Origin: Planctomycetaceae bacterium
GTDB taxonomy: Bacteria; Planctomycetota; Phycisphaerae; Phycisphaerales; SM1A02
DNA length: 52,242 nt
Direction: 5' to 3'
Assembly (NCBI GenBank): GCA_021297815.1
Contig: JAJTGK010000003.1
Location: 1-52,242 of the forward strand
Under the pieces are notes generated by a model. The model was given only the letters and a program-made list of their open reading frames with translations, made no database searches and was not told the DNA's origin. A program made the position numbers and the translations under genes. This document shows, piece after piece, positions 17,171 through 34,299 of the stretch. How positions within the stretch are numbered: the first letter of the stretch is position 1; every line of letters starts with the position of its first letter.

Positions 17171-17221
17171 TTTTCTAGAAATAAAAAGGTGTGCCTGCGT
17201 GGATCGGGCGCGGCTGGGCCT

Positions 17222-17227
17222 TACCTT
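17222..17227 (+). promoter_or_regulatory. Putative leaderless promoter -10 of beta-helix/dockerin gene (TACCTT)
   Basis: TACCTT, 6-nt spacer, ATG at 17234. The preceding 17171-17200 is unusually AT-rich for this window. Confidence 0.6.
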
Positions 17228-17233
17228 CGGGGC

Positions 17234-20200
17234 ATGTCTCGAACCCGCCCCGTGTCCGTCCCGGCGCTTGTCTCCGCCTTGCTCCTGGTGCTTGCCGTCG
17301 TCCTGCCCCGCGCAGAGGCGCAGGTTCGGTTCCATGTCGACCCCTCGGTGCCCGCGAGCGGCGACGGACTGACCTGGGCGACGGCATTCAAGGGCATCAA
17401 GTCGGCGGTCACCGCCGCGGTGGCCAACCCCGCGGTCACCGAGATCTGGGTGAAGGCGGGCACCTACTACCCGGGCGTGACCCCGTACGGGTCGCGCGAC
17501 GGGCTTGCGATCTACGGCGGCTTCGCAGGAACCGAGACCGCGCTCGCGCAGCGCAACCTCGCCGTCAACGAGACGATCCTCACGGGGCAGGACTCGGTGC
17601 GCGTGATCTCGGGCGCGGGCCTCGGCCCGACGGCGGTCTTCGACGGCTTCACCATTCGCGACGGGCGGACCAACGCCAACGGCGCGCTCATCGATGGCGG
17701 CAGCGCGACCTTCCGCCGCTGCAAGTTCCTCTCGAGCCGCGCGGGCGGGGAGGGCGGCGTCTACTCGAGCTACGGCGACAGCCCGACCTTCATCGAATGC
17801 CGCTTCAACGGCAACGAGAGCGGGCAGGGCGGCTCGGTCGCCAACAGCTACGAAGGCACGCTGACCTTCGTGAACTGCCGCATCTTCGCGAACATCGCCG
17901 ATGGCGGCGCCACGATCCTGACCTACGAAGGCGCGATCAACCTCATCAACACGGCCGTCTGCGGCAACACAGGTGGCGGCGACTGCGGCGTGATCACCTA
18001 TCGCGGCGCGGTGTACGCCGTCAACTCCACGATCGCCTCGAACTCGGGCGCAGGGCTTTCGAGCTTCACCGGCCCCGACAAGATCCTGCACAACTGCGTC
18101 GTGTGGGGCAACGGCCTCAATGGGCCATTCGCGGCGAGCCATTCCCTGCTGCCGTTCGCGGATGCGGGCGAGGGCAACATCTCGGTGGACCCGCTGTTCG
18201 CAAGCCCCGACGCGCGCGACTGGCGCCTCGGCGGCGGGGTCGCCGCGATCGACGCGGCGAGCGCGGCGCTCGTGCCTGCCGACACCTTCGACGCCGACTT
18301 CGACGGCGATGTGCTCGAGCCCTTCCCGCTCGACAACAACGGCCTTGCGCGCGTTCGCGACGGCGGCGTGGGCAAGCCCTGCGTCGACATGGGCGCCTAC
18401 GAGTGGTTCCCCGACTGCAACCTCAACTTCATCGAGGATGCGGCCGACATCGCGCAGGGCGTGAGCACCGACCTCAACGCGAACGGCCTGCCCGACGAGT
18501 GCGAGGACTGCAACGGCAATGCGTTGCCCGATTCGATCGACATCGGCAACGGCCTGAGCGAGGACTGCCAGCGCGACGGCATTCCCGACGAGTGCCAGCA
18601 GGAGATCGTGGTCGTGCGCTACAAGCACGACGACGGCGTGCCCGACACCGACATCGGCCTCACGAACCCCGCCGACATCGCGTGGCTCAACGCATTCGAG
18701 GTCGTCGAAGGCGGCGAGATCCTGCGCGAGGTGCGCGTCGCGTGGGGCTCGGGCCTGCCCGTTGGCGTGGCGGCGAAGGTCTGCGTGTGGAGCGACCCCG
18801 ACCAGGACGGCAACCCCGCCGACGCGAAGGTCGTGCGCAGCGAGCTCGTGTTCGTCGAGAGCCCGGGTACGGGCGCATTGCAGCTCGTGGACATCGCCGA
18901 TGTCTTCATCGGTGCCGCGGGCAGGCGCTTCTTCGTCGGGGCTTCGGTCGCAGGGGATTCAGGCATGGCGCCGATCGACATCGGTGCGCCGTTCGCGATG
19001 AAGTCGTGGGTCGTCGCGTCGAACGCCGTGGGCGAGCTCGATCTCGACAACCTCGGCGCGGCGCCGCTCTTCGGCCGCGTCGACACCTATGGCTTCGCAG
19101 GCGACTGGCTCGTGCGCGCCTCAGGATGGCGCGAGCTCGATTGCAACGGAAACGGCGACCTCGACGAGTGCGACATCTTCTCGGGCTCAAGCGCCGACTG
19201 TGGCGGCGATGGCATTCCCGACGAATGCCAGCTCGCAGGCAACGACTGCAACTCGAACGGAATCCCCGACGACTGCGAGCTCGCCTCGGGTGCGCTCGAC
19301 GACTGCCAGCCCAACGGCGTACCCGACCAGTGCGAGCTCGCGTCGGGCACCTCGACCGACCTCAATGCGAACGGCGTGCCCGACGACTGCGAGGATTGCG
19401 ACGGCAACGGCCTGCCCGACTCGATCGATCTCGCCAACGGCGCCGCCGACTGCCAGCCCGACGGCATCCTCGATTCGTGCCAGCTCGGCACCGACGAGGA
19501 GTTCGTCTATCGCCGCGACGACGGCACCGCCGAGATCTATGTCTCGAGCGACGCCCCCAACATGGCGTGGCTCGTGAACTTCACGGTCGAGGAGGGCGGC
19601 GAGCGCATCGGCGCGGTCGATGTGCTGCATGCGCGGATGCCGATCGGCTTCCCTGTCGACATCTACCTGTGGAGCGACCCGAACGGCGACGGCAACCCGA
19701 ACGACGCGCAGGTGCTGGCGCATGTCGCGACCACGATCCAGTTCCCCGACAGCAATACCTACGAGCGCGTCGAGGTTCCCGATGTGCTCGTCGGAGAGAC
19801 GGGGACCTCGTTCTTCGTCGGCGCGATCGTGCACGACTTCCAGCTGTTCAACGACTACCCGGGGGCGAAGCACAACACGGGCGAGACCTACACCTCGTGG
19901 CTCGTCGGCAAGAACGGCACCATCGACCCGAACGACCTGTCGGCGGACGCCGACGAGTTCCTACGCATCGACGATCTCGGCGGGCCTTTCGTAGGCGTGT
20001 GGTGCATTCGCGCGGCGGCCGATGCGAGCAACGACTGCAACCTCAACGGGTTCCCCGACGACTGCGACATCGCCGATGGCACGAGCGCCGACATCGACTA
20101 CGACGGACGGCCCGACGAGTGCTACCCGCCCGCCTGCATCGCGGATCTGACGGCCGACGGAATCGTTGGCGCGGCCGATCTCTCGCTGCTGCTCGGCGCA

Positions 20201-20296
20201 TGGGGCGGCACGGGGCCGGCCGATCTCGATCGGAACGGCCTGGTGGGTGCGTCGGATCTCGCGTTGCTGCTCGGCGCGTGGGGAATCTGCCCGTAA
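17234..20296 (+). CDS. Secreted beta-helix protein with calcium-type repeats and dockerin-like tail
   Basis: 1020 aa. A signal peptide (PALVSALLLVLAVVLPRAEA) is followed by a pectate-lyase-like right-handed beta-helix region (about 30-390: IYGGFAGTET, FDGFTIRDGRTNANG, FIECRFNGNES). Thrombospondin-type-3-like repeats rich in Asp/Asn/Cys come in blocks (DCNSNGIPDDCELASG, DLNANGVPDDCEDC). They flank two similar beta-sandwich modules (around 460-620 and 750-920, each with VCVWSDP/IYLWSDPNGDGNP). The C-terminus is a two-motif dockerin-like module (ADLTADGIVGAADLSLLLGA, then DLDRNGLVGASDLALLLGAW). No catalytic residues are recognisable. It is probably a surface or extracellular binding protein. The ATG at 17234 is set by the TACCTT hexamer and the signal peptide. 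Confidence 0.88.
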   Translation: MSRTRPVSVPALVSALLLVLAVVLPRAEAQVRFHVDPSVPASGDGLTWATAFKGIKSAVTAAVANPAVTEIWVKAGTYYPGVTPYGSRDGLAIYGGFAGTETALAQRNLAVNETILTGQDSVRVISGAGLGPTAVFDGFTIRDGRTNANGALIDGGSATFRRCKFLSSRAGGEGGVYSSYGDSPTFIECRFNGNESGQGGSVANSYEGTLTFVNCRIFANIADGGATILTYEGAINLINTAVCGNTGGGDCGVITYRGAVYAVNSTIASNSGAGLSSFTGPDKILHNCVVWGNGLNGPFAASHSLLPFADAGEGNISVDPLFASPDARDWRLGGGVAAIDAASAALVPADTFDADFDGDVLEPFPLDNNGLARVRDGGVGKPCVDMGAYEWFPDCNLNFIEDAADIAQGVSTDLNANGLPDECEDCNGNALPDSIDIGNGLSEDCQRDGIPDECQQEIVVVRYKHDDGVPDTDIGLTNPADIAWLNAFEVVEGGEILREVRVAWGSGLPVGVAAKVCVWSDPDQDGNPADAKVVRSELVFVESPGTGALQLVDIADVFIGAAGRRFFVGASVAGDSGMAPIDIGAPFAMKSWVVASNAVGELDLDNLGAAPLFGRVDTYGFAGDWLVRASGWRELDCNGNGDLDECDIFSGSSADCGGDGIPDECQLAGNDCNSNGIPDDCELASGALDDCQPNGVPDQCELASGTSTDLNANGVPDDCEDCDGNGLPDSIDLANGAADCQPDGILDSCQLGTDEEFVYRRDDGTAEIYVSSDAPNMAWLVNFTVEEGGERIGAVDVLHARMPIGFPVDIYLWSDPNGDGNPNDAQVLAHVATTIQFPDSNTYERVEVPDVLVGETGTSFFVGAIVHDFQLFNDYPGAKHNTGETYTSWLVGKNGTIDPNDLSADADEFLRIDDLGGPFVGVWCIRAAADASNDCNLNGFPDDCDIADGTSADIDYDGRPDECYPPACIADLTADGIVGAADLSLLLGAWGGTGPADLDRNGLVGASDLALLLGAWGICP

Positions 20297-21576: not shown

Positions 21577-21969
21577 CTACGGGCATCTCGGCGCGTCGCC
21601 GTCGCCACGGCCATCGCCGTCGTCGCCCATGGGCGCGCCTTCGCAGCAACCTGCGCGTCGCGCCGCCTCGGCCGACTCGATCATGCGCGCGAGCACATCG
21701 ACCGAGCCGCGCTTCTCGAGGAACTCGGCGAAGTGCCGCATCGATTCGGGGTTCGCCAGCACCGACGCCACGGGCGTGAAGAAGTGCACCGCCGCCGATC
21801 CGAGCGCATTCATCGGCCGCGACATCTCGAGGAAGGCGACCGCAGGCCCCGTCATGCGACGGCGCACGACCTCGGCGACCAGCCGCTCGAGGATGGCACG
21901 CTGCGCGTCGGTCGGCTCGCAGGGCCGCCCGTCGTCGAGCGCGAAGGCGTTGCGGAGGAACTCGCGCAT
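21577..21969 (-). CDS. Small hypothetical protein, possibly helical
   Basis: 130 aa, not recognised. The body is helix-rich (RAILERLVAEVVRRRMTGPA, then VAFLEMSRPMNALGSAAVHF, FAEFLEKRGSVDVLARMIES). It ends with a short Cys and Asp/Gly-rich tail. No signal peptide or membrane helix is clear. A TTG three codons upstream (21978) is in frame, but the ATG at 21969 sits 10 nt after a TACGCT hexamer. It is divergent from the formylglycine-generating enzyme gene. The codon pattern is like its neighbours, so it is probably real. Confidence 0.65.
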   Translation of the reverse strand: MREFLRNAFALDDGRPCEPTDAQRAILERLVAEVVRRRMTGPAVAFLEMSRPMNALGSAAVHFFTPVASVLANPESMRHFAEFLEKRGSVDVLARMIESAEAARRAGCCEGAPMGDDGDGRGDGDAPRCP

Positions 21970-21979
21970 GGCGTGCAAG

Positions 21980-21997: not shown

Positions 21998-22003
21998 TAC
22001 GAT
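21998..22003 (+). promoter_or_regulatory. Putative leaderless promoter -10 of formylglycine-generating enzyme gene (TACGAT)
   Basis: TACGAT, 7-nt spacer, GTG at 22011. The alternative ATG at 22002 lies inside the hexamer, which argues for the GTG. Confidence 0.5.
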
Positions 22004-22010
22004 GCACGCC

Positions 22011-23165
22011 GTGACGATTTCGCTTGCGATCATCTTTCCCGTGTTTCTCGGGGTTTCCGAGCCTCCTGCGCCCGCTGCGCCCGTTCCTGCACCGACCGCG
22101 CCCGAAGGCATGGTGTGGATCGCAGGCGGCGAGTTCACGATGGGCGGCAGCGACAGCCTCGCGCGCCCCGACGAGCGCCCGCGCCACCGCGTGCGCGTCG
22201 GCGGCTTCTGGATGGACGCGACCGAGGTCACGAACGCGCAGTTCCGCCGCTTCGTCGAGGCAACGGGATACAAGACCGTCGCCGAGCGCCCCGTCGACTG
22301 GGAGGAGCTGCGCAAGCAGGTGCCCGAAGGCACCCCGAAGCCGCCCGCCGCGATGCTCGAGCCGGGGTCGCTCGTCTTCGCGCAGCCCGGACCCGAGCAG
22401 CCCGCCGACGCCTACTTCGACTGGTGGCGCTGGACCACGGGCGCCAGCTGGCGGCACCCGCAGGGCCCCGAGAGCACCATCGACGGCAAGGACGCGCACC
22501 CCGTCGTGCATGTCGCCTATGAAGACGCGCTCGCCTACTGCGCATGGGCGGGGAAGCGGCTGCCCACCGAGGCCGAATGGGAGTTCGCCGCGCGCGGCGG
22601 CCTCGAGGGAAAGGTCAACACCTGGGGCGACGAGCCCGTGGTGCCCGCCGCGGGCAAGCCGTGGCGCTGCAACATCTGGCAGGGCGAATTTCCGCGGGGA
22701 AACACGAAGGACGACGGCTTCCTGCGCGCGGCGCCTGTGCGGAGCTTCGCGCCGAACGGCTACGGCCTCTTCGACATGGCGGGCAATGTGTGGGAGTGGT
22801 GCGCCGACCTCTATGCGCACGACGCCTACGCCGAACGCGTGGGCGCGCTCGGCGCGGCGAAGGTCGTGGTCGACCCGAAGGGCCCCGCGCGCAGCAGGGA
22901 CCCGCGGAACCCGAGCGCACCCGAGTCGCGCGTCCACCGTGGCGGGTCGTTCCTTTGCAACGACAGCTACTGCGCGAGCTACCGTCCGAGCGCGCGCATG
23001 GCGTCGACGCCCGACTCGGCGATGGAGCACCTCGGCTTCCGCTGCGTGAAGGATGCATCGCCCGACGCGCCTGCGCCGCAACCCGCCGCGGCGCCCGCAC
23101 AGCCTGAGAAGGCCAAGCCGCAGCTGCCCGCGCCGTTGCCCGCGCCGCAGCCCATCGCGAGGTGA
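22011..23165 (+). CDS. Formylglycine-generating enzyme (sulfatase-modifying factor), secreted
   Basis: 384 aa from the GTG. A short N-terminal hydrophobic signal (ISLAIIFPVFLGVSEPPAP) is followed by an FGE-sulfatase domain: VWIAGGEFTMGGSDS, DATEVTNAQFRRFVEATGY, RLPTEAEWEFAARGG, GLFDMAGNVWEWCADLY and LGFRCVKD. The stretch GGSFLCNDSYCASYRPSAR contains both cysteines of the copper/active site seen in authentic FGE (here Cys316 and Cys321), so it likely oxidises a sulfatase cysteine to formylglycine and is not just a family homologue. The C-terminus is a Pro/Ala tail. No sulfatase gene is in the window. It lies just upstream of the six-gene membrane operon. Confidence 0.88.
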   Translation: MTISLAIIFPVFLGVSEPPAPAAPVPAPTAPEGMVWIAGGEFTMGGSDSLARPDERPRHRVRVGGFWMDATEVTNAQFRRFVEATGYKTVAERPVDWEELRKQVPEGTPKPPAAMLEPGSLVFAQPGPEQPADAYFDWWRWTTGASWRHPQGPESTIDGKDAHPVVHVAYEDALAYCAWAGKRLPTEAEWEFAARGGLEGKVNTWGDEPVVPAAGKPWRCNIWQGEFPRGNTKDDGFLRAAPVRSFAPNGYGLFDMAGNVWEWCADLYAHDAYAERVGALGAAKVVVDPKGPARSRDPRNPSAPESRVHRGGSFLCNDSYCASYRPSARMASTPDSAMEHLGFRCVKDASPDAPAPQPAAAPAQPEKAKPQLPAPLPAPQPIAR

Positions 23166-23170
23166 GTCGG

Positions 23171-23176
23171 TACGCT
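23171..23176 (+). promoter_or_regulatory. Putative leaderless promoter -10 of the MutL-like operon (TACGCT)
   Basis: TACGCT begins 6 nt after the preceding stop, with a 6-nt spacer to the ATG at 23183. Confidence 0.6.
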
Positions 23177-23182
23177 GCGCCC

Positions 23183-25015
23183 ATGCACGCGCCCGCCCAC
23201 GCCGCGAAGCCCGCGATCGACCTCTCGAAGCTGCGCTACATCCTGGCCACCGACTGCGGATCGACCACGACCAAGGCGATCCTGGTCGAGCGCGTGGGCG
23301 AGTCGTGGCGCCAGACGCAGCGCGCCGAGGCGCCGACCACGGTCGAGGAGCCGTTCGCCGATGTCACGATCGGCGTCTCGAACGCCCTGACCGAGATCGG
23401 CGAGCTCGCGGGCCGCCGCTTCATCGCCGACGACGGCACGATCATCCGCCGCAAGGGCCCCGACGACCCCGACGGCTGCGATATCTACATCTCGACCTCG
23501 AGCGCGGGCGGCGGCCTGCAGATGGTGGTCGCGGGCGTGGTCGCGCAGATGACCGCGGCGAGCGCCAAGCGCGCGGCCCTCGGCGCGGGCGCGATCGTCA
23601 TGGACACGATCGCCTCGAACGACAAGCGCAAGGCGCACGAGCGCATCGGCCGCATCCGCGAGCTGCGCCCCGACATGGTGCTCATCTCGGGCGGCACCGA
23701 CGGCGGCAATGTGCAGCAGGTCGTCCAGCTCGCCGAGCAGATCGCGCCCGCGAAGCCGCGGCCGCGCTTCGGCGGCGAGTACGAGCTGCCCGTGATCTTC
23801 GCGGGCAACAAGGAGGCCGCGCCGCAGGTGCGCGCGATCTTCGGCGCGCAGGGCGGCTTCGACCTCTCGGTGGTCGACAACCTGCGCCCCACGCTCGAGC
23901 AGGAGAACCTCGGCCCCGCGCGCGACCGCATCCACGATGTGTTCCTCGAGCATGTCATGGCGCACGCCCCAGGCTACGACCGCCTCATCTCGTGGAGCGA
24001 CGCGCCCATCATGCCGACGCCAGGCGCGGTGGGCGACATCCTGCAGCGCATCGCCGAGCGCGACGGCCTGAACGCGGTGTGCGTCGACATCGGCGGCGCG
24101 ACCACCGATGTGTTCAGCGTGTTCGGCGGCACCTTCAACCGCACGGTGAGCGCGAACCTCGGCATGAGCTACTCGATCTCGAATGTGTGCGCCGAGGCGG
24201 GCATGGCGAATGTGCTGCGCTGGGTGCATGTCGCGATGGACGAGCGCGAGCTGCGCAACCGCGTGAAGAACAAGATGATCCGCCCGACCACGATCCCGCA
24301 GTCGGCGGAGGCGCTCGTGTTCGAGCAGGCGGTGGCGCGCGAGGCGCTGCGCCTGGCGTACCAGCAGCACAAGGAGTTCGCGACCACGCTGAAGGGCGTG
24401 CAGCAGCAGCGCACGGTCGGCGACCTCTTCTCGCAGCAGGAGAGCGGCCGCACGATCGTCGACGACATGGCGCTCGACCTCCTCGTCGCGTCGGGCGGCG
24501 TGCTCAGCCACGCGCCGCGCATGGAGCAGACGGCGGCGATGCTCGTCGACAGCTTCGAGCCGCAGGGCTTCACGCAGCTCGCGAAGGACTCGATCTTCAT
24601 GATGCCGCACCTCGGCGTGCTGGCGAGCGTGCATTCGGCGGCCGCGATGGAGGTCTTCGAGCGCGACTGCCTGGTGCGGCTCGGCTGGTGCGTGGCCGCG
24701 AAGGGCGAGGGCAAGTGGGGCAAGCCGTGCTTCCGCTACCGCGTCTCGGGCGCGGTGTCTGCGTCGGGAGCGCTCGCGTGCGGCGATGTCGCGCTCGTGC
24801 GCGTCGCGGGCGACCAGGAGGTCGTGGTCGTGGTCGAACCCGAGAAGGGCTTCGATGTCGGCGCGGGCGCGGGCAAGCCGCTCGAGCGTCGCGTGACGGG
24901 CGGCACGGTCGGCATCCTGTTCGACGCGCGCGGACGACCGCTCGTGTTGCCCGAAGGCGAGGCCGACCGCAAGGCGGCCGTCGCGCGCTGGGCGCAGGCG
25001 TGGGGGGTCTGCTAG
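23183..25015 (+). CDS. MutL-like (glutamate mutase L family) ASKHA ATPase
   Basis: 610-aa actin-fold protein of the family named after MutL, associated with B12 glutamate mutase. The phosphate-1 motif ATDCGSTTTKAILVE is near residue 22 and phosphate-2 CVDIGGATTDVFSVF near 300. MVLISGGTDGGNV and VIFAGNKEAAPQVRAIF lie between them. The C-terminal ~100 residues form a separate beta-rich domain (VSGAVSASGALACGDVALVR). No glutamate mutase subunit or other cobalamin enzyme lies near; all five following genes encode a KOW/lipoyl-like protein or membrane proteins in the same direction. I infer an ATP-driven role for a membrane complex rather than mutase maturation. The TAG stop is embedded in the next gene's TAGGTT hexamer. 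Confidence 0.85.
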   Translation: MHAPAHAAKPAIDLSKLRYILATDCGSTTTKAILVERVGESWRQTQRAEAPTTVEEPFADVTIGVSNALTEIGELAGRRFIADDGTIIRRKGPDDPDGCDIYISTSSAGGGLQMVVAGVVAQMTAASAKRAALGAGAIVMDTIASNDKRKAHERIGRIRELRPDMVLISGGTDGGNVQQVVQLAEQIAPAKPRPRFGGEYELPVIFAGNKEAAPQVRAIFGAQGGFDLSVVDNLRPTLEQENLGPARDRIHDVFLEHVMAHAPGYDRLISWSDAPIMPTPGAVGDILQRIAERDGLNAVCVDIGGATTDVFSVFGGTFNRTVSANLGMSYSISNVCAEAGMANVLRWVHVAMDERELRNRVKNKMIRPTTIPQSAEALVFEQAVAREALRLAYQQHKEFATTLKGVQQQRTVGDLFSQQESGRTIVDDMALDLLVASGGVLSHAPRMEQTAAMLVDSFEPQGFTQLAKDSIFMMPHLGVLASVHSAAAMEVFERDCLVRLGWCVAAKGEGKWGKPCFRYRVSGAVSASGALACGDVALVRVAGDQEVVVVVEPEKGFDVGAGAGKPLERRVTGGTVGILFDARGRPLVLPEGEADRKAAVARWAQAWGVC

Positions 25016-25018
25016 GTT
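25013..25018 (+). promoter_or_regulatory. Putative internal leaderless promoter -10 (TAGGTT) overlapping a stop codon
   Basis: TAGGTT with a 6-nt spacer to the ATG at 25025. Its first three bases are the stop codon of the MutL-like gene. It could allow expression of the distal genes without the ATPase gene. Confidence 0.45.
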
Positions 25019-25024
25019 CCCGCC

Positions 25025-26152
25025 ATGGCCAAGGCCTACACGCCAGGACTCAAGGTGTCTGCGAGCACGGTCTACCGCGCGCGGCGTCTGCTGCCCGTCA
25101 CGGGCGAGGTGCTCGTGAAGGCGGGCGACCGCGTGGGCGCGCGCGACACGGTGGCGCGTACCTTCGTCGAGGGCGAGGTCACGCCTGTCGCGCTCGCATC
25201 GCTGCTGTCGGCGCCCGCGGGCGATGTGCCGTCGCTCATGTTGGTGAAGCAGGGCGACACCGTCGAGGCGGGGCAGCCGCTCGCGCGGTCGAAGGGCATC
25301 TTCGGGCTCGGCAAGAAGGAAGTGCCTTCGCCCGCCGCGGGCACGGTCGAGTCGATCAGCGCGACGACGGGGCAGGTGATCCTGCGAGGTGCGCCGATCG
25401 CGGTCGAGGTGAAGGCGTATGTCTCGGGCACGGTCGTTGAGGCCTTGAGCGGCGAGGGCGCCGTGGTCGAGTGCGACGCGGCGCTCGTGCAGGGCATCTT
25501 CGGCGTCGGTGGCGAGACGGTCGGGCCAATCCGCATGGCGGCGAACTCGCCCGATGCGACGCTGGGCGCGGCCGACATCAAGCCCGACATGAAGGGCGCG
25601 GTCGTGGTCGGCGGCGCGCGCATGACGGCGGGCGCCGTGCAGGCGGCGCAGGCGGCGGGTGTCGCGGCGCTTGTCGCGGGCGGGATCGACGACGCCGATC
25701 TGAAGGCGATCCTCGGGTACGACCTCGGCGTCGCGATCACGGGCAGCGAGCGCATCGGGCTCACGCTCGTCGTGACCGAGGGCTTCGGCGACATCGCGAT
25801 GGCGGCGCGCACCTTCGCGCTGCTCAAGGGGTTCGAGGGCCGCGAGGCGAGCGTGAACGGCGCGACGCAGATCCGCGCGGGCGTGATGCGCCCCGAGATC
25901 GTGGTCGCGCGGCAGGCGGGCGACCCCGCGCCGTCGACGGGGGCGCGGCCCGAGGAGGGCGCGCTCGAGATCGGCACGCAGGTGCGGCTCATCCGCGATC
26001 CGTACTTCGGGCTGATCGGCAGCGTCGCGGCGCTGCCGAGCGAGCCCGCGGTGCTCGGCTCTGGGTCGAAGGCGCGCGTGCTCGAGGTGACGCTCGGCGA
26101 TGGACGCCGCGTCACCGTGCCGCGGGCGAACATCGAGTTGATCGAGACCTGA
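25025..26152 (+). CDS. Uncharacterised protein with barrel-sandwich (biotinyl/lipoyl-like) and KOW domains
   Basis: 375 aa, cytoplasmic by appearance. Residues ~20-135 look like a barrel-sandwich hybrid fold with repeated short beta motifs (LPVTGEVLVKAGDRVGARD, VKQGDTVEAGQPLARSKG, VPSPAAGTVESISATTGQV); no modified-lysine motif is seen. A central alpha/beta region follows (GAVVVGGARMTAGAVQAAQA, VAALVAGGIDDADLKAILGY, ERIGLTLVVTEGFGDIAMA). The C-terminus has a KOW-like element (VRLIRDPYFGLIGSVAALP) and ends with a beta strand. It is the second gene of the six-gene operon. No enzyme is recognisable. The domain mix suggests an adaptor between the ASKHA ATPase and the membrane components. Confidence 0.8.
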   Translation: MAKAYTPGLKVSASTVYRARRLLPVTGEVLVKAGDRVGARDTVARTFVEGEVTPVALASLLSAPAGDVPSLMLVKQGDTVEAGQPLARSKGIFGLGKKEVPSPAAGTVESISATTGQVILRGAPIAVEVKAYVSGTVVEALSGEGAVVECDAALVQGIFGVGGETVGPIRMAANSPDATLGAADIKPDMKGAVVVGGARMTAGAVQAAQAAGVAALVAGGIDDADLKAILGYDLGVAITGSERIGLTLVVTEGFGDIAMAARTFALLKGFEGREASVNGATQIRAGVMRPEIVVARQAGDPAPSTGARPEEGALEIGTQVRLIRDPYFGLIGSVAALPSEPAVLGSGSKARVLEVTLGDGRRVTVPRANIELIET

Positions 26153-26181
26153 ACGCCGCGCGTGCGGCAGCGAGGATTGGC

Positions 26182-27087
26182 ATGCGGATCCGACAAGCAC
26201 ACGCGAGCGCACTCAGGATCGCGTCGCTGTCGGCGGCGTCGATGTGCGCCGCCATCGCATGGGCGCAGGACGCGGCGCCCGCGGCCGTCGATGGCGCCGT
26301 GGCCGCCGAAGCCGCGAAGGCGTGGTTCGACACAGGACGGCTCGGGCTCCTGCTCGCCGTCGCCGTGGCGAGCGCATGCATCATCGCGGGCATCGTGATC
26401 GCGCGGCTCGGCGGCAGCGTGCGCATCCGCCGCATCGCGGCGCTCGAGGCGATCGACGAAGCGGTCGGCCGCGCGACCGAGATGGGCCGCCCCGTGCTCT
26501 TCGTGCCAGGCATCCAGGACATGAACGACATCCAGACGGTCGCGGGCATCACCGTGCTCGGCAGGGTCGCGAAGACCGCGGCCGAGTACGACGCGCAGCT
26601 CGAGGTGCCGACCGCGCGCTCGCTCGTCATGACCGCCGCGCGCGAGACGGTGCAGTCGGCCCACTACGCCGCCGGGCGCCCCGAGACCTACAGCGAGGGC
26701 CGCATCAACTACATCACCGACGAGCAGTTCGGCTATGTCGCGTACCTCAGCGGCAAGATGGTGCGCGACAAGCCTGCCGCGTGCTTCTACATGGGCGCGT
26801 TCTACGCTGAGAGCCTGGTGCTTGCCGAGAACGGCAACGCCATCGGCGCGATCCAGGTGGCGGGCACGGCCGAACCGTCGCAGCTGCCGTTCTTTGTCGC
26901 GGCCTGCGACTACACGCTGCTTGGCGAGGAGTTCTTCGCCGCGAGCGCGTATCTCTCGGGCGAGCGCGACCAGCTCGGCTCGATCAGGGGGCAGGACATC
27001 GGCAAGCTGCTCGTCGCCGCCTCGATCGTCGTCGGCTGCGCGATGGCGACCTACGCGTCCATCGCGCTCGCGTTCGGAGGATCCTGA
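26182..27087 (+). CDS. DUF6754-type membrane protein
   Basis: 301 aa. An N-terminal signal-like segment ends near AWAQ. A membrane helix lies at about 52-74 (LGLLLAVAVASACIIAGIVI), and a large conserved soluble domain includes RPVLFVPGIQDMNDIQTVAG, EVPTARSLVMTAARETVQ, FYMGAFYAESLVLAENG, IQVAGTAEPSQLPFFVAACD and YTLLGEEFFAASAYL. A C-terminal helix follows (LLVAASIVVGCAMATYASI). I match this pattern from memory to DUF6754; the function of that family is unknown. A GAGG-type ribosome site precedes the ATG at 26182. The next gene starts 3 nt after its stop. Confidence 0.78.
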   Translation: MRIRQAHASALRIASLSAASMCAAIAWAQDAAPAAVDGAVAAEAAKAWFDTGRLGLLLAVAVASACIIAGIVIARLGGSVRIRRIAALEAIDEAVGRATEMGRPVLFVPGIQDMNDIQTVAGITVLGRVAKTAAEYDAQLEVPTARSLVMTAARETVQSAHYAAGRPETYSEGRINYITDEQFGYVAYLSGKMVRDKPAACFYMGAFYAESLVLAENGNAIGAIQVAGTAEPSQLPFFVAACDYTLLGEEFFAASAYLSGERDQLGSIRGQDIGKLLVAASIVVGCAMATYASIALAFGGS

Positions 27088-27090
27088 CCC

Positions 27091-27792
27091 ATGTTCAAGC
27101 GTGGCATACCCATCGCGATCCTCAGCCTCACGGGCACGCTGCTCGTTGCGGCGCACTTCTCGCCCATGACGCAGTCGTGGGGCGAGGTCGTGCTCAACTG
27201 GTTCAGCGTCGTCGCGGCGATCACGGCGATCCTCGGCGCAGGAAACCTGCTGCTCGTCAACCTCGAGAAGATCTCCTCGCGCCGCCCTGGCTGGGCGTAC
27301 TCGGCGATCACCATCGCGGCGTTCGCAGCGATGCTCGTCTTCGGCTTCCTCAAGATCGGCGCCGTGCCGAACCCGCAGAACCCGACGGTGTACTTCGCGG
27401 GCGACTACGAGACGCGCGAGTCTGCCTACGGCTGGATGTACGAGTATGTCATGTCGCCGCTCACGGCCACGATGTTCGCGCTGCTCGCGTTCTATGTGGC
27501 GAGCGCCGCGTTCCGCGCCTTCCGCGCGAAGAACATCGAGGCGAACATCCTGCTCGTCACGGCGTTCATCATCCTGCTCGCACGCACCTACGCGGCCGAG
27601 CTGCTGACGGGCTGGGTGCCGAAGGACTCCGCCTTCTTCTTCGTGCGGCTCGACGCCATGTCGACGGGCGTCATCGAGCATGTCGCGACGGCGGGCATGC
27701 GCGCGATCACGATCGGCATCGCCCTTGGCGCGCTGGCGACAAGCCTGCGCTTCATGCTCGGAATCGACAAGAGCTACCTGCCACGGAGCTGA
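27091..27792 (+). CDS. Uncharacterised six-helix membrane protein
   Basis: 233 aa with about six hydrophobic segments: IPIAILSLTGTLLVAAHF, WFSVVAAITAILGAGNLLLV, YSAITIAAFAAMLVFGFL, LTATMFALLAFYVASAAF, ILLVTAFIILLARTYAAELL and AITIGIALGALATSL. A conserved-looking loop ESAYGWMYEYVMSPLTATM lies between helices 3 and 4. It carries no known motif. The ATG follows GGAGGATCC at a normal ribosome-binding distance and sits 3 nt after the DUF6754 stop. It is an integral part of the operon and probably a membrane subunit of its complex. Confidence 0.78.
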   Translation: MFKRGIPIAILSLTGTLLVAAHFSPMTQSWGEVVLNWFSVVAAITAILGAGNLLLVNLEKISSRRPGWAYSAITIAAFAAMLVFGFLKIGAVPNPQNPTVYFAGDYETRESAYGWMYEYVMSPLTATMFALLAFYVASAAFRAFRAKNIEANILLVTAFIILLARTYAAELLTGWVPKDSAFFFVRLDAMSTGVIEHVATAGMRAITIGIALGALATSLRFMLGIDKSYLPRS

Positions 27793-27804
27793 TGGAGCGA
27801 CCCC

Positions 27805-28710
27805 ATGACTGACCAGACTCCACACATCGGCCCCGTGCGCCGCCTGCTCGTACGGCTCGGCGACATCGACCGTCGCTGGATCTACCTCTCGATGGCGCTC
27901 GCAGTGGCGATCCCCATGCTCACGGGCCTCAGCTTTCCCGAGACGCCTGGCAAGATGTCGTCCGCGACCTTCGATGCCATCGAGTCCGTGCCGGCGGGCG
28001 CGAAGGTGCTCTTCTCGTTCGACTACGACCCGGCGAGCGAGGGCGAACTGCAGCCCATGGCGAACGCCTTCGTGCACCACTGCGCCGCGCGGGGCCACAA
28101 GATGGCCTTCATGGCGCTCTGGCCGCTCGGCAAGCAGATGGCGGAAGCCACGATCGACAGCATCCTGCTCGCGAACCACCCGCAGTACCGCTACGGCGAG
28201 GACTATGTGCAGCTCGGCTACATGCCCGGCTTCGAGACCGTCATCAAGGGCCTCACCACGAACTTCGCGTCGCAGTACCCGCTCGATGTGCGCGGCACCC
28301 CGATCGGAAACATCCCGCTGATGAGCGATGTCAAGACGCTCCAGGACTTCGACCTCATCGTCACCGTCTCGGCTGGCTACGCAGGTGCGAAGGAGTGGGT
28401 CCAGTACGCGAAGAGCACCTACCCCGACGCCTATGTGCTTGCGGCTGGCTCGACGGGCGTGCAGGCGAACCAGCTGTTCCCGTACTACCCGACCCAGATG
28501 GAAGGCCTTCTCGCCGCCGTCAAGGGCGCCGCCGAGTACGAGACGCTGGTCGCGGCCGCGTATCCGCCCCCCGCGCATCCCGAGCGACTCGAAGAAGGCC
28601 GCCGCAGGATGGGGCCGCAGTTCGTGGCGCACCTCCTGATGATCGGGCTGATCGTCCTTGGGAACGCCTCGATGTTCGCGGCCCGCGGCATGAAGGGAGG
28701 CCGACGATGA
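27805..28710 (+). CDS. Uncharacterised membrane-anchored alpha/beta protein
   Basis: 301 aa. One helix lies near the N-terminus (WIYLSMALAVAIPMLTGLSF) and one at the C-terminus (FVAHLLMIGLIVLGNASMFA). Between them is a ~220-residue alternating alpha/beta domain: AGAKVLFSFDYDPASEGELQ, HKMAFMALWPLGKQMAE, DFDLIVTVSAGYAGAKEWVQ, AYVLAAGSTGVQANQLFPY and QMEGLLAAVKGAAEYE. The helix arrangement suggests that the domain faces the periplasm or another extracytoplasmic space. No catalytic residues are identifiable. The C-terminal codons overlap the ATG of the next gene (ATGA). Confidence 0.78.
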   Translation: MTDQTPHIGPVRRLLVRLGDIDRRWIYLSMALAVAIPMLTGLSFPETPGKMSSATFDAIESVPAGAKVLFSFDYDPASEGELQPMANAFVHHCAARGHKMAFMALWPLGKQMAEATIDSILLANHPQYRYGEDYVQLGYMPGFETVIKGLTTNFASQYPLDVRGTPIGNIPLMSDVKTLQDFDLIVTVSAGYAGAKEWVQYAKSTYPDAYVLAAGSTGVQANQLFPYYPTQMEGLLAAVKGAAEYETLVAAAYPPPAHPERLEEGRRRMGPQFVAHLLMIGLIVLGNASMFAARGMKGGRR

Positions 28711-29792
28711 GCAACCCAACGACGCCAAGCGGAGGCGCGAAGGGCCCGAGCCCCGTCGCGATGATCGCGCTCCTCCTCTTCCTGCTCGCGGCGGTCGCCG
28801 ACCAGACGCTCTTCTCCGAGCCGTACTTCGCGCGCAAGTATGTCGACCTCAAGTCGAACGAGCGGATCCAGGCCAGGCACACGGGCGCCGATGGCGAGTC
28901 GAGGACCGCGTGGCTCGAGCCCACCGATCAGAAGATCGTCTCGGGCGAGTGGAAGCCCGTCGAGGGCGTCGACCCCGTGAAGTGGACGACGCGACCCGCG
29001 GTCACGGAGAAGGAGTACGAGGCGGTCCAGGCCGAACTCGCGGCGAACCCAGGCACCGCGCCGACGCGCACGCTTGAGGCGAGCCCCATCGACACGCTCG
29101 GCGTCTGGGTCGCCGCGTTCCTGACGCTCGCGATCTTCTCGTTCCTCTGGCGCGACAACCCCGTGTACAAGGTGGCTGAAAGCCTGCTCGTTGGCGTGTC
29201 GGCCGGCTACTGGATGGTGAACGGCTTCTGGACGGCGCTCGTGCCGAAGCTCATCGCGCCGCTTGCACCGGGTTTCACGCAGTCCAATCTGCTCCCCGAC
29301 CTGCAGGCATCGTCGACCCCTGGTCTCGACTTCGCGCTCGCGTTGGTGCCGCTCACGCTCGGCTTCCTGCTGCTGTGGCGCCTCGCGCCGCGCGGCGGCT
29401 GGATCTCGGTGTGGCCGCTCGCCTTCATCATCGGCACCACGGCGGGCCTGAAGGTGATCTCGTCGGTCGAGGCCGACCTGCTGCCGCAGAGCCTCGAGGC
29501 GATGAAGCCGCTGGTCGTGTTCTCCCCGCAGGCCGACGACGCTGCAAAGCTCGGCTTCGACTTCTGGATGTCCCTGTCCTCCCTCGTCGGTGTCGTCGGC
29601 GTGCTCTCCGTGCTCGTCTACTTCTTCTTCTCGGTCGAGCACAAGGGCGCCGTCGGCAAGACCGCGCGCGTGGGCATCTGGTTCCTGATGATCACCTTCG
29701 GATCGGCGTTCGGCCTGACCGTGATGGGACGCATCACGCTGCTCTCGCAGCGCTTCGAGTTCCTGTTCACGGACTGGCTGAGGATCGGCTGA
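28707..29792 (+). CDS. Uncharacterised polytopic membrane protein, last gene of the MutL-like operon
   Basis: 361 aa with about seven membrane helices. The first is near residues 17-37 (VAMIALLLFLLAAVADQTLF). A ~70-residue loop follows, and then closely spaced helices (LGVWVAAFLTLAIFSFLW, LLVGVSAGYWMVNGFW, LALVPLTLGFLLLWRLAP, VWPLAFIIGTTAGLKVI, SLVGVVGVLSVLVYFFFSV, IWFLMITFGSAFGLTVMG). The ATG at 28707 follows GGGAGG and overlaps the previous stop. An upstream in-frame extension to 28395 is rejected because it only shadows the preceding gene. It ends just before a strong hairpin. Function unknown. Confidence 0.78.
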   Translation: MSNPTTPSGGAKGPSPVAMIALLLFLLAAVADQTLFSEPYFARKYVDLKSNERIQARHTGADGESRTAWLEPTDQKIVSGEWKPVEGVDPVKWTTRPAVTEKEYEAVQAELAANPGTAPTRTLEASPIDTLGVWVAAFLTLAIFSFLWRDNPVYKVAESLLVGVSAGYWMVNGFWTALVPKLIAPLAPGFTQSNLLPDLQASSTPGLDFALALVPLTLGFLLLWRLAPRGGWISVWPLAFIIGTTAGLKVISSVEADLLPQSLEAMKPLVVFSPQADDAAKLGFDFWMSLSSLVGVVGVLSVLVYFFFSVEHKGAVGKTARVGIWFLMITFGSAFGLTVMGRITLLSQRFEFLFTDWLRIG

Positions 29793-29813
29793 CCGACACC
29801 ACCAGCTGATGGA

Positions 29814-29847
29814 GCAGGGCTCCGCGCCCCCATGCGCGGAGCCCTGC
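29814..29847. terminator. Intrinsic-type terminator hairpin after the MutL-like operon
   Basis: Perfect 13-bp stem gcagggctccgcg / cgcggagccctgc with an 8-nt loop, followed by ctgttt. The U-tract is weak on the plus strand. It sits between two convergent genes and may serve both. Confidence 0.75.
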
Positions 29848-31510: not shown

Positions 31511-34234
31511 CTACCTGCACACGCCCCACGCATTGAGCAGCGCGGCGAGGTCGCTCGCGGCGGTGACGCCGTCGAGATCGAGATCGGCCGGCCCCTGCGA
31601 TCCCCACGCCGAGAGAAGCGCCGCCATGTCGGCCGCATCGACCACGCCGTTGTGATCGAGGTCGGCAGGACACGCGAGCCATCCGTTGCAGTCGGGATAG
31701 AGGAACACCGCTTCGGTCGTCGCCAGGCCGCCCGCGTCGGTCACGGTCAGCGCCACCTCGAAGAAGTATGTCTCGAGCTCGCAGCCGAGCGGCGAGATGA
31801 GCGTCGTCGTCTCGCACTGCGCGTCGGGTGGTTCGCTGTGCGTGTGGGTGTTGTGGTGCAGCGTGGTGACCCACTTGCAGACGAGTTGCGACGCGGCGTG
31901 CTCGGCGTCGGCCATCGCGGCGCGCAGCGGAAACACCGAATCACCGCTCATCGGGTAGAGCATGCCGTCGTAGAGGCTCGTGATCGCGACCGTTGGCGGC
32001 GTGTTGTTCACGCCGACCGTGATCGACGCAGTCGCCGTCGCGCCCGCAGGGTCGGTCACCGTGACCACGGGGTCGAAGCGCACGGGCGCCGACGACGGCG
32101 CGGAATACACATGCGTGACCGTCGCGCCGCTTGCGCCCGGCGTGCCGTCGCCGAAGTTCCACGCGTAGGTGAGCGCGCCGTTCTCAGGGTCGCTCGAGCC
32201 CGCGGCAGAGAGCGTGACGGTGAGCGGCGACGGCCCGAACGACGGCGTCGCCGCGATGCGCGCCACAGGCGGCTGGTTCGCGCCCGGTTGATAGCGGTGA
32301 CGCAGCACGGTCGACGGCCAGCGGATCGACCAGAGGCTCTGGTCGAGCGGGTTCGTTTCGAGCGCGACAAGCGACGGCGCCGCGCTGTCGAAGACGCGCA
32401 CCGCCGAGACCTCGCCCACCGTGTTGAACGCGAGCGCGCGGATCCACCCCGAGCCGTAGTCGCCGATGAACAGCACATCGCGGAAGTCCGAAGGCCACGA
32501 CGCGTACGAGACGCGCGGGCCGCCGACCGCACAGAGGCCCGCGAACGCAGCGCCGCTCGCGCCACCTGTCGCGCCCACATTCACGACCGCCGCCGCGCCG
32601 TTCGCGAAAGCAGGCGTGCGCGCCACGCTTCCACCATGGCTCCAGTCGATCACGGGCCTGCGGTGGACGAAAGTCGGCACCGCGGCCGCGATGGCGGGCG
32701 CAGCGCCCGACCCCGCGACCACGGCGATCGCGTCGATGTTCGGCCCGCTCGCGTTCGTCGTCGCAAGCGCGATCTGCCGCGAGCCCGCGGCCAGATTCAG
32801 CGTCGCCGACTGCAGCCTCCACTCGGTCCACGATCCCGTCGGCTCGAATGCGAGCGACGCGATCGCGCTCACGCCATCGACCTCGACGCGCAGCGGCCTA
32901 TTCGTGGCGCCACCATGCGCGTAGCGCACATAGAGCGTGTGCTGGCCCGTGGTCTGCACGCTGACCGAGAAAGTGATCTTCTCGCCGCTCGTCTGCTGGT
33001 AGTCGCGGTACCCCGCGCCCTGGTAGCCCACATAGGTCGTCGTGACGGGCGCACCTGTCGCCGCCGCGCTCTCGGCCTGCAGGAACCTGCATGGATCGTG
33101 CCGCACGAGCGCCGACGGCGCCTGCGAGTCCTGCCCCAGCAGATCGCGGAAGCGGTACGCCGTCGGGCACGGCGCAGGCTGCCCCGTGGGCGCATCGCTG
33201 TTCACAGGTGACGCGTTCCAGTAGCCCGCGTTGAAGTCGAGCCCCTCGAAGATCGGCCAGCCGAAGTTCTGCTTCGCCGCGGTGCAGACCTGCATGTCTT
33301 CCCACGAAGACCAGCCCACATCGCCGATCTGCACGATGCCTGGATCGCCCTCCGACGGGTCGTGCCCGCCGGTTCCCGCGACCACGCTCATGCGAAACGG
33401 ATTGCGCAGTCCAAGCGCCCACACGCGGCTCTTCGGCGCACGCGGCGTCGCGGCGTTGAACCACGGGTTGCTCGGCACGCCGTCGCCCGTCGTCGCGTCG
33501 AGGCGGAGCAGCTTTCCATTCAGGCAGTCGACGAGCTGCGAGCGGAACGCGCCCACATTCTCCTTCTCGCGCAGGATTCCGCGGGCGAGCGCGTCGTTCA
33601 CATAGCCATCGGCGACCTGCCCGCCCGTGTCGACGAGGTTGTAGCTCGCCGCATCGCCCGTCGTCAGGAGCAGCGTGCCGTCCTCGGCGAACGCGAGCGT
33701 GCCGAGCCCGTGCGACTGATGCGTGATCGGCACGCCCGTCGACGCCGTTTCGCCAAGCAGCACCATGCGCGACGCGAGGTCGGCGTGCAGGCCGCCCTTC
33801 CCGTCGTGCAGCTCGTAGCGCGTGATGCGGCCGATGGTCGCGGCGTAGTAGGTGTTGGTCGCGGCGTTGTATTGCGCGGTGCCGGCGAAATCGAGGTGGT
33901 GGCGATCGACCACATACAGCAGGTAGATCCAGCCGTTCTCCGCGAAGTTCGGATGCACCGCCACGCTCATCAGGCCGTAGTCGCGCCACGCGCCCACTTC
34001 ATCGGAGAGGTCGAGGAGCGGCGCGCTTCCCTTCACGCCCGCGGAGCTCACGGTCCACAGCTTGCCGCCGCGCTCGAAGACGATCGCGCTGCCGTTCGGA
34101 AGAAACGCGACGCCGCACGCTTCGTTCCACGCGCTGCCCATCGTTTCGCTGGTGAAGCCCGCGGGTGGTGCGGCGTGCGCCACGGACGCGGCGACAGCGA
34201 TTTCAAGGGCAATGGCGGCGGCTCTGCGGAGCAT
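31511..34234 (-). CDS. Secreted sugar dehydrogenase-like protein with CBM6, PKD and dockerin-like modules
   Basis: 907 aa. A signal peptide (AAAIALEIAVAASVAHA) precedes a PQQ-type glucose/sorbosone dehydrogenase-like beta-propeller (residues ~25-390: WNEACGVAFLPNGSAIVFER, LMSVAVHPNFAENGWIYLLY, SSWEDMQVCTAAKQNFGWPI). Within its later part is a CBM6-like module (LQAESAAATGAP ... GQHTLYVRYAHGGATNRPL). A propeller closing segment, a PKD domain (SSDPENGALTYAWNFGDG, ~675), a further beta domain and a dockerin-like tail (ADLDHNGVVDAADMAALLSA) follow. It probably oxidises or binds carbohydrate outside the cell. The ATG at 34234 is set by TACCTT at 6 nt; an upstream ATG lies within the promoter. Confidence 0.87.
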   Translation of the reverse strand: MLRRAAAIALEIAVAASVAHAAPPAGFTSETMGSAWNEACGVAFLPNGSAIVFERGGKLWTVSSAGVKGSAPLLDLSDEVGAWRDYGLMSVAVHPNFAENGWIYLLYVVDRHHLDFAGTAQYNAATNTYYAATIGRITRYELHDGKGGLHADLASRMVLLGETASTGVPITHQSHGLGTLAFAEDGTLLLTTGDAASYNLVDTGGQVADGYVNDALARGILREKENVGAFRSQLVDCLNGKLLRLDATTGDGVPSNPWFNAATPRAPKSRVWALGLRNPFRMSVVAGTGGHDPSEGDPGIVQIGDVGWSSWEDMQVCTAAKQNFGWPIFEGLDFNAGYWNASPVNSDAPTGQPAPCPTAYRFRDLLGQDSQAPSALVRHDPCRFLQAESAAATGAPVTTTYVGYQGAGYRDYQQTSGEKITFSVSVQTTGQHTLYVRYAHGGATNRPLRVEVDGVSAIASLAFEPTGSWTEWRLQSATLNLAAGSRQIALATTNASGPNIDAIAVVAGSGAAPAIAAAVPTFVHRRPVIDWSHGGSVARTPAFANGAAAVVNVGATGGASGAAFAGLCAVGGPRVSYASWPSDFRDVLFIGDYGSGWIRALAFNTVGEVSAVRVFDSAAPSLVALETNPLDQSLWSIRWPSTVLRHRYQPGANQPPVARIAATPSFGPSPLTVTLSAAGSSDPENGALTYAWNFGDGTPGASGATVTHVYSAPSSAPVRFDPVVTVTDPAGATATASITVGVNNTPPTVAITSLYDGMLYPMSGDSVFPLRAAMADAEHAASQLVCKWVTTLHHNTHTHSEPPDAQCETTTLISPLGCELETYFFEVALTVTDAGGLATTEAVFLYPDCNGWLACPADLDHNGVVDAADMAALLSAWGSQGPADLDLDGVTAASDLAALLNAWGVCR

Positions 34235-34240
34235 CGAGCC

Positions 34241-34246
34241 AAGGTA
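34241..34246 (-). promoter_or_regulatory. Putative leaderless promoter -10 (TACCTT)
   Basis: TACCTT on the minus strand, 6-nt spacer, ATG at 34234 of the sugar dehydrogenase-like gene. Confidence 0.6.
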
Positions 34247-34299
34247 CGGCATGCCGCGGCGCGCACCAGAACCACGCCGCGACTTTCATGCGGAAACGG

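Follow-up and report, generated by a model that had tools for sequence, protein, structure and literature searches.

A seven-gene planctomycete locus that probably encodes an undescribed membrane complex served by a MutL-family ATPase

Genes and signals at the locus

The window is a 52,242-nucleotide stretch of DNA from a Planctomycetaceae bacterium (contig JAJTGK010000003.1). Six genes on one strand, termed A to F, are found in the middle of the window (Table 1). The preliminary description of this DNA had proposed six same-strand genes with gaps of 3–30 nt or 4-nt overlaps, and all six were located as claimed at 23183–29792. The intergenic gaps from A to E are 9, 29, 3 and 12 nt, and E and F overlap by 4 nt. 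The set as first drawn is present and in order, however it lacked a seventh member, H, which lies outside the span. A GTG at position 23162 is also a possible start of A.

Table 1. Features of the locus, with positions counted from the first nucleotide of the window.
Feature	Position	Strand	Description
H	21577–21978	-	132-aa protein, without Pfam match; seventh member
TANNNT (TACGCT), promoter-like	23171–23176	+	6 nt 5′ of the A ATG
A	23183–25015	+	MutL/GlmL-family ASKHA ATPase, Pfam MutL
TANNNT (TAGGTT), possible second promoter, before B	25013–25018	+	Overlaps the A stop codon
B	25025–26152	+	Barrel-sandwich protein, central alpha/beta part, KOW-like end
C	26182–27087	+	DUF6754: signal peptide, TM, cytosolic Rossmann-like domain, TM
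D	27091–27792	+	Six-TM protein, no clear known family
E	27805–28710	+	TM, alpha/beta domain (periplasmic by charge rule), TM
F	28707–29792	+	TM, ~95-aa loop, then multi-TM
Hairpin after F, possible terminator	29814–29847	+	Perfect 14-bp stem, no clear T-run

A single TANNNT promoter had been proposed for the operon. The motif before A has a counterpart in 8/8 same-genus sequences, the window included, as counted by eye. However TANNNT also precedes B, with a counterpart in 6/8 of the same-genus sequences (likewise by eye), thus the transcription starts may number two and not one, and B may have a promoter of its own, judging from the motif. The background is 14 of 1307 ATGs within the window. 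Outside the genus the motif is inconsistent, and a sigma-70 scan found no promoter. The proposed 13-bp terminator hairpin is present after F as a perfect stem, which is one base pair longer than described, but it has no proper T-run and was not reported by a terminator scan. The 71-nt stretch containing it folds at -42 kcal/mol (z -6.6). H, the putative second promoter, the one- to threefold paralogous cores, the gene fusions and the C-terminal extension of A were all absent from the preliminary description.

The A sequence displays a match to PF13941 (MutL) at residues 20–496 (427.3 bits against a cut-off of 27, E-value = 9.1e-128), and positions 2–455 of the 459-position GlmL model align to A residues 21–494. 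With the NCBIfam models compared (NF040745, NF040744 and TIGR01319), A falls below the curated cut-offs for GlmL (236.4/475), OrnL (204.5/600) and the GlmL family (166.2/204.05). There is also an extra C-terminal part at about residues 497–610, and 116 residues follow the GlmL-aligned region. The nucleotide-site residues of A are invariant in 21/21 sequences. These include residues 24–31 and 302–309, which we take to be the two phosphate-binding motifs of ASKHA ATPases. A PDB sequence search with A gave nothing at the thresholds used.

B displays a Biotin_lipoyl match (Pfam, 2e-10) and matches below cut-off to RnfC_N (4.2e-05, 24 of 25.6 bits) and NqrA_N (1e-04, 22.9 of 25 bits). It resembles the RnfC/NqrA-like barrel-sandwich, and the canonical lipoyl-lysine position is not kept. 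Of the lipoyl-like barrel and KOW element earlier assigned to B, the barrel is borne out by the Biotin_lipoyl match, but the only sign of a KOW-like end is a faint similarity to an SPT5 structure (E-value = 0.055). In three loci A and B are fused. An Rnf/Nqr redox pump is not supported, as RnfC_N and NqrA_N are under cut-off and no Rnf/Nqr family was matched by D, E or F.

H displays 39.6% identity over 106 aa to the protein that precedes A in another locus, and its family was defined by a 26-row alignment. Thirty named loci contain both H and A, and in 27 of them the two are no more than 400 nt apart.

C is a clear match to DUF6754 (PF20539; 6e-114, 379.9 bits, positions 2–249 of 257). D, E and F of the window have no Pfam family above cut-off. 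Hydropathy shows six transmembrane segments in D, two in E and six in F, and a signal peptide with two segments in C; the topology of C and E was read from hydropathy and charge. Thus D is the six-helix protein and E the membrane-anchored alpha/beta protein that had been described, whereas at the threshold applied F showed no seventh helix. C has the highest number of invariant columns among the membrane subunits, i.e. 43 compared with 19 in D, 17 in E and 25 in F. Of the C residues re-checked, which were chosen as conserved in overlapping alignments, 17/20 are identical in 51/51 copies. Domains of extracellular type are found in some relatives, with fn3 in 5/44 C proteins and FG-GAP in one D. 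E and F are fused in one locus.

The structure models of C (pLDDT 87.2) and E (pLDDT 94.0, pTM 0.90) gave no convincing fold match. The C model had no PDB or viral-library match at E < 0.001; among the matches listed, the top TMt noted was 0.47, for a Moco carrier protein and a LabA-like protein, neither of them significant. The E protein had one PDB match below that threshold (9.3e-4), with TM < 0.3 and an rmsd of 12.8. With C and F as queries, sequence searches of the PDB were empty at the thresholds applied. Among D relatives the most frequent match is DUF7521 (13/42, best E-value = 0.00018), and the best family match of F relatives has an E-value of 0.0065 and is found in 1/45.

Several candidate relationships were rejected. 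A similarity of the E protein to cobalamin adenosyltransferases (E-value = 0.3) is taken as chance, and a C–E match spans 30 columns at a membrane helix. A relation of D to MrpF was hinted at (E-value = 0.16), but hhalign of 42 D with 10 MrpF sequences gave a probability of 0.1%. An Mrp relation of F and a relation between D and F were likewise discarded.

Conservation and co-occurrence of the gene set

There is good support for H, A, B, C, E and F being a single conserved functional unit. D is counted in this unit because its position, between C and E, does not change. Of 20 regions from DUF6754-bearing relatives, 18 hold all of A–F, and D-E-F are downstream of C in 94 of 111 copies (80 named loci). 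The families H, A, B, C, E and F were searched over 149 Planctomycetota genomes with profiles built from loci found through C. All six are found in 34 genomes and some in 10, mutase-linked MutL alone is found in 3, and none of the families in 102. Singly, the H profile is present in 40 genomes (37 of these with C), E in 42 and F in 41. The families thus co-occur, with Fisher p-values that treat related genomes as independent.

Linkage is not universal. In families f30 and f48 the genes are unlinked although the gene content is kept, and in one genome assembled as a single contig (G024) the parts are at five distant places and all are retained. The conserved neighbourhood holds therefore for content and not always for position. 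The co-inheritance of the families, also where their genes are spread over the chromosome, suggests a common task.

C-D-E-F is present as one to three paralogous sets, and the C paralogues are old. C is present in two or three copies in 20 named loci; A was seen in 12 of these, never twice, and H in just 3. One genome (G039) has two operon-type A genes and another (G008) has two B and two H matches, so one A-B module per cell is not a rule. Partial sets are also found: G037 (95% complete, 8% contaminated) has C, E and F without A, B and H; G050 and G145 have H, C, E and F without A or B; G041 is without A and H, G099 without B and G124 without H. These may represent assembly gaps or cores that work alone.

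DUF6754 relatives are found in at least 570 stretches of a species-level genome collection. The best 80 of these include Planctomycetota (41), Zixiibacteriota (16), Fidelibacterota (4), Acidobacteriota (2) and six more named phyla with one locus each; as most loci are from metagenome bins, the single-locus phyla may be binning errors. Thalassoglobus neptunius KOR42, a planctomycete that can be cultured, has at least B and C. Apart from H, the neighbour that recurs directly beside the system is a PH-like protein, P (17/120 loci). Fatty-acid-synthesis-like and PPDK-like genes, named by eye, are farther off in subsets of loci and are not taken as partners. A known anti-phage defence was rejected, as PADLOC models match 0/7 proteins at E 0.001.

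The MutL-family ATPase and the mutase question

A belongs to PF13941, a family named after a glutamate-mutase accessory, and five matches to the B12-binding domain are present on other contigs of this genome, one in an open frame of 1196 aa, which is the size of a methionine synthase. A might then simply assist a B12-dependent mutase whose gene is at another place in the genome, and the membrane genes would be neighbours without any relation to it. We consider this very improbable. The glutamate-mutase E subunit (PF06368) has no match in this genome, which is 88% complete, and is found in 0/41 of the DUF6754 genomes among the 149. It is above cut-off in 3/149, all without DUF6754, and the genomes with matches below cut-off (three others) are likewise without it. 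The three mutase-E genomes carry their own distant MutL, which adjoins the mutase gene in two and is on broken contigs in the third. In addition, the B, C, E, F and H families track A, unlinked cases included. The absence of the E subunit from all 41 DUF6754 genomes indicates that the A set is not a mutase accessory, and a role as glutamate-mutase accessory was rejected. The possibility raised earlier, that MutL of this clade always pairs with a mutase encoded elsewhere, is contradicted by the same count as far as glutamate mutase is concerned. The original reading, in which an actin-like ATPase goes with a membrane complex and not with a mutase, is well supported by the occurrence of A–F in 18/20 regions, by the co-occurrence of the families and by the missing E subunit. 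That the ATPase energises or gates the complex, as was also proposed there, is an inference.

Proposed mechanism, alternatives and known systems

The seven genes, which stay together in many poorly studied bacteria, are likely to specify a membrane complex not described so far. The ATP-using protein that would serve it is related to a helper of B12 enzymes. C, D, E and F would form a core within the inner membrane. The conserved C domain would face the cytosol, where it may bind a ligand or act catalytically, and the E domain would lie in the periplasm. A is predicted to hydrolyse ATP; it would bind the cytosolic side of the core via B (and H) and bring about a conformational change, whether remodelling, reactivation or gating. 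Where a lineage has several paralogous cores (two or three), these probably share a single A-B module and differ in their periplasmic parts. The reading that we favour, in which A-B and H together hydrolyse ATP to remodel or gate the C-D-E-F cores, is about as likely as not.

The same parts could be read as a primary transporter or ion pump in which A hydrolyses ATP, D and F pass a solute or ion, E is a periplasmic binding domain and B a coupling subunit. The two polytopic subunits, the predicted periplasmic alpha/beta domain, the ATPase-family protein and the weak RnfC_N/NqrA_N likeness of B are in keeping with this, as are scattered weak membrane-family matches of D relatives (e.g. AA_permease_2, 2/42, best E-value = 0.0009). 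However neither D nor F relatives show a consistent transporter family, the MrpF hint was unconfirmed by profile-profile comparison, and ASKHA ATPases have no known role as primary pumps; a pump is thus unlikely. C could also be an enzyme tethered to the membrane that acts in the metabolism of lipids, cofactors or nucleotides, with the other proteins (D, E, F, A and B) as anchor and regulators. Such a role agrees with the many invariant columns in the Rossmann-like domain of C and with the fatty-acid-synthesis-like genes found downstream at a distance in up to nine loci. As the fold matches of C are too weak for any enzyme class and the fatty-acid genes are limited to one subset of loci, we regard it as decidedly unlikely.

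A may instead be a scaffold, as are the actin-like PilM/GspL of pili and secretion systems, in a complex that assembles or exports something at the cell surface. The actin-like fold family, the layout across cytosol, membrane and periplasm, the fn3 and FG-GAP domains of some C and D relatives and an ABC-ATPase-like gene cluster in 6/120 loci (read by eye) are compatible with such a role. Against it, no pilin, secretin or secretion ATPase was seen by eye in the partly annotated neighbour clusters (those in at least 5/120 loci), and the invariance of the nucleotide-site residues suggests hydrolysis rather than scaffolding, which makes a scaffold quite unlikely.

Returning to the remodelling or gating module, we tentatively propose, with somewhat more doubt than confidence, a wider reading: an undescribed class of ATP-powered transmembrane machine, in which a MutL-type ATPase of actin/Hsp70 fold was recruited from B12 enzymes and the A-B module, together with H, drives as many as three C-D-E-F cores, which are ancient and interchangeable and link an invariant cytosolic site to variable periplasmic domains. 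The class would be well represented in Planctomycetota, Zixiibacteriota and Fidelibacterota and is seen in further phyla. If this is true, a helper family of B12 enzymes has been re-used on a membrane complex. With a defined gene set, invariant residues and the mutase-linked MutL as a control within the phylum, function is directly testable. Among the matches listed in a literature search, no function was found for the gene set and no paper named DUF6754 or PF13941.

Of the known systems, DUF6754 is a domain of unknown function of which C is a clear member. The likeness to the N-terminal barrel-sandwich hybrid of RnfC/NqrA is weak and confined to one part of B, and the operon gave no further match to an Rnf or Nqr family. 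GlmL/MutL, the accessory of B12-dependent glutamate and ornithine mutases, is similar along A residues 21–494, however A is under all three NCBIfam cut-offs, has extra C-terminal residues and has membrane proteins as partners. In the glycerol/diol dehydratase reactivase, which works by a subunit swap, an Hsp70-like ATPase domain with a partner subunit remodels its client (PMC7674605). This resemblance is one of working only. Unlike the clients of such Hsp70-like reactivases of B12 enzymes, the client of A, by analogy, would be a membrane complex needing no B12, and no B12 enzyme is present in the operon.

Genes of the locus and their predicted products

The window, which is the entire contig C66 of its genome, contains the six genes A to F in the order given in the preliminary description; that description missed however a seventh member, H, encoded on the opposite strand.

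Positions of the features in the window
Feature	Position	Strand	Identity
Flanking protein	17189-20296	plus	long, apparently secreted
H	21577-21978	minus	seventh member of the system
Sulfatase-modifying-factor-like gene	22002-23165	plus	assigned by eye
A	23183-25015	plus	MutL family, PF13941, 427 bits
B	25025-26152	plus	barrel-sandwich part; Biotin_lipoyl, 2e-10
C	26182-27087	plus	DUF6754, PF20539, 380 bits
Flanking protein	31511-34252	minus	long, apparently secreted

A displays both nucleotide-site motifs and these are invariant in all 21 aligned sequences. The GlmL model alignment stops at residue 494 of 610, thus A has 116 further residues. B scores slightly below the cut-off with RnfC_N and NqrA_N, and the Pfam search gave no family above the cut-off for D, E or F of the window. 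The membrane topology of the subunits is predicted from hydropathy and charge: C has a signal peptide, a transmembrane segment, a cytosolic domain and another transmembrane segment, D has six segments, E has two with a domain predicted to be periplasmic, and F has six, the first of which is followed by a long loop. Structural models of E (mean pLDDT 94.0) and C (87.2, the first 25 residues below 50) found no convincing match in fold searches.

Of the single TANNNT promoter proposed earlier, the site before A is present, however B has its own motif, which lies 6 nt upstream of the B ATG and overlaps the stop codon of A. Counted by eye in eight same-genus sequences (the window and seven others), the A site is found in all eight at a spacing of 6-8 nt and the B site in six; beyond the genus the sites are not consistently present. 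As background, TANNNT lies 4-9 nt from the ATG at 14 of 1307 window ATGs.

The sulfatase-modifying-factor-like gene sits between H and A, and such a gene also precedes A in four of the seven other same-genus regions (L199, L200, L202, L204). Read by eye, the two flanking proteins share at the C-terminus a repeat of the D-x-D-G type together with LLxAWG, apparently a common sorting or dockerin-like tag. In other loci, an extra gene of ~257 aa lies between B and A (L084, L090, L093, L103 and L104), and the gene between A and B in L105 matches DUF6134 (29.6 bits, cut-off 27.9). A membrane protein bearing a PH-like domain is found near H in 17 of 120 loci compared (L034, L046, L061, L067 and others) and directly adjoins a system gene in 16 of the 17; the one copy tested scores 20.3 bits with bPH_6, where the cut-off is 22.

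Conservation and distribution of the gene set

One collection scan found at least 570 related stretches. The best 80 were kept as named loci; most are metagenome bins and many are on contigs that stop within the operon. By record title, 41 of these best 80 are from Planctomycetota, 16 from Zixiibacteriota, four from Fidelibacterota, two from Acidobacteriota and one each from six further named phyla, with 11 unplaced. All of A to F are found in 39 of the 80 and C, D, E and F together in 68. Downstream of 94 of the 111 C copies in these loci come D-E-F in the same orientation; 11 copies have none following, three have D alone and three D-E alone. Many of these absences are due to contig ends; in L055 and L056, D to F are not adjacent to C. 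H is present in 34 of the 80; A accompanies it in 30 loci, and in 27 of these the two are less than 400 nt apart.

The possibility raised earlier that the neighbourhood is not conserved in relatives is answered by 20 regions drawn from 42 relatives with a match, where A to F are complete in 18; one exception is without A and H in the stretch read and in the other the contig stops before F. DUF6754 is present in 15/15 other sampled genomes of the same genus, 20/21 others of the family and 7/7 of families f78 and f79; it was found in none of 17 sampled genomes of three families of the same order (f2, f3, f4) and in none of 14 control genomes, two of which gave MutL matches, none above the cut-off.

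A set of 149 genomes of the same phylum was searched for A, B, C, E, F, H and the glutamate-mutase E subunit. A is above the cut-off in 42 (a 43rd match, in G127, is below it and was left out); B was found in 37, C in 41, E in 42, F in 41 and H in 40, and the DUF6754 genomes are spread over 25 family codes. All six families are held by 34 genomes and none by 102 (co-occurrence, Fisher p 1.3e-25 to 4.9e-36, values that ignore kinship). Three genomes have A alone, and these are exactly the three with the glutamate-mutase E subunit above the cut-off; three more have it below. The alternative that MutL always accompanies a glutamate mutase is not borne out in these 149 genomes, where the E subunit is above the cut-off only where A stands alone.

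Partial sets are found in ten genomes: C and E (G014), C, E and F (G037), B, C, E and F (G041), H, C, E and F (G050, G145), H and A (G053, G073), all but C (G067), all but B (G099) and all but H (G124). Five are 72-83% complete and the others 88-95%, thus incompleteness may not explain all partial sets. G024, a single 6.36-Mb contig, retains all six families even though they are split among five widely separated sites (H, B-C, A, F and E), and in family f48 H-A-B is apart from C-D-E-F.

Repeated cores, fusions and diverged MutL proteins

The C-D-E-F core is repeated in Zixiibacteriota and others. Among the best 80 of at least 570 loci, 60 have one C, nine have two and 11 have three. The 20 loci with more than one C show A in 12, two A in none (the A of L090, called as two pieces, is counted as one) and no A within the stretch in eight; H is in only three. 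More than one module occurs in some genomes: G039 carries a second operon-type A, and G008 gave two matches each for B and H.

In a tree of 77 C sequences (quick method), first, second and third copies tend toward separate groups across genomes, with supports of 80-100 and exceptions in L085 and L123. Nine of 15 single-copy C, including that of the window and five from its group, are on the second-type side (support 89), four from other genomes of the phylum are on the third-type side, and two are long branches elsewhere. Different lineages thus retained different single cores. Of 20 C residues, chosen for conservation in overlapping alignments, 17 are identical in all 51 sequences, which comprise the three triplet groups plus the single-copy set; the exceptions, T119, S211 and L258, differ in a few sequences.

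A and B are fused in L067, L048 and L038, and E and F in L082. Extra domains on C proteins are fn3 (5/44) and EF-hand (1/44), and one D has FG-GAP repeats.

On a tree made by a quick method from partial sequences, with long branches, the MutL proteins linked to a mutase fall far from A. Their genes adjoin a mutase gene in G098 and G040; in G010 the contigs are broken at this MutL. A strongly diverged A, away from C-D-E-F, is found in four genomes of the phylum (L122, L128, L124, L189), and these form one group with long branches on the A tree. A diverged B directly follows in L122 and L128, where ten proteins, the diverged B included, have no Pfam match above the cut-off.

A possible mechanism and comparison with known systems

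The gene set is co-inherited, its order is conserved, some of its members are fused in a few loci and the nucleotide-site residues of A are invariant. The original observation is confirmed and enlarged. Its interpretation as an energised or gated membrane complex is supported in part: the gene set behaves as a unit, while ATP hydrolysis and the drive on the core are steps that we infer. A would hydrolyse ATP, its docking on the core would run through B, and A-B would force the membrane core to change conformation; several cores would share one ATPase.

Such ATP-driven remodelling or gating has about an even chance of being the correct model. It is to be weighed against a complex that is a true pump, against A as a scaffold, and against C as a membrane-tethered enzyme, the domain of C between its two membrane helices being read from secondary structure and generic hits as probably a Rossmann-like alpha/beta domain.

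In the open-licence PMC literature no paper on DUF6754 was found, although a description elsewhere is possible, and PF13941, PF20539, "glutamate mutase L" and COG1548 gave a single paper, which judging by title and abstract concerns thiamin pyrimidine synthase. Among the matches listed there, judged by titles and abstract openings, none describes the gene set. As far as these searches reach, the set as a unit is an undescribed system. Named families cover only A, C and part of B, and A taken alone would be a variant of a known family; the searches turned up no established type of system to which the set could be assigned. When the Hsp70-like reactivase of glycerol dehydratase hydrolyses ATP, a subunit is released and takes the place of one of the client's own (PMC7674605). 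This reactivase is the nearest mechanistic model for A-B, purely as a comparison of how A-B would work.
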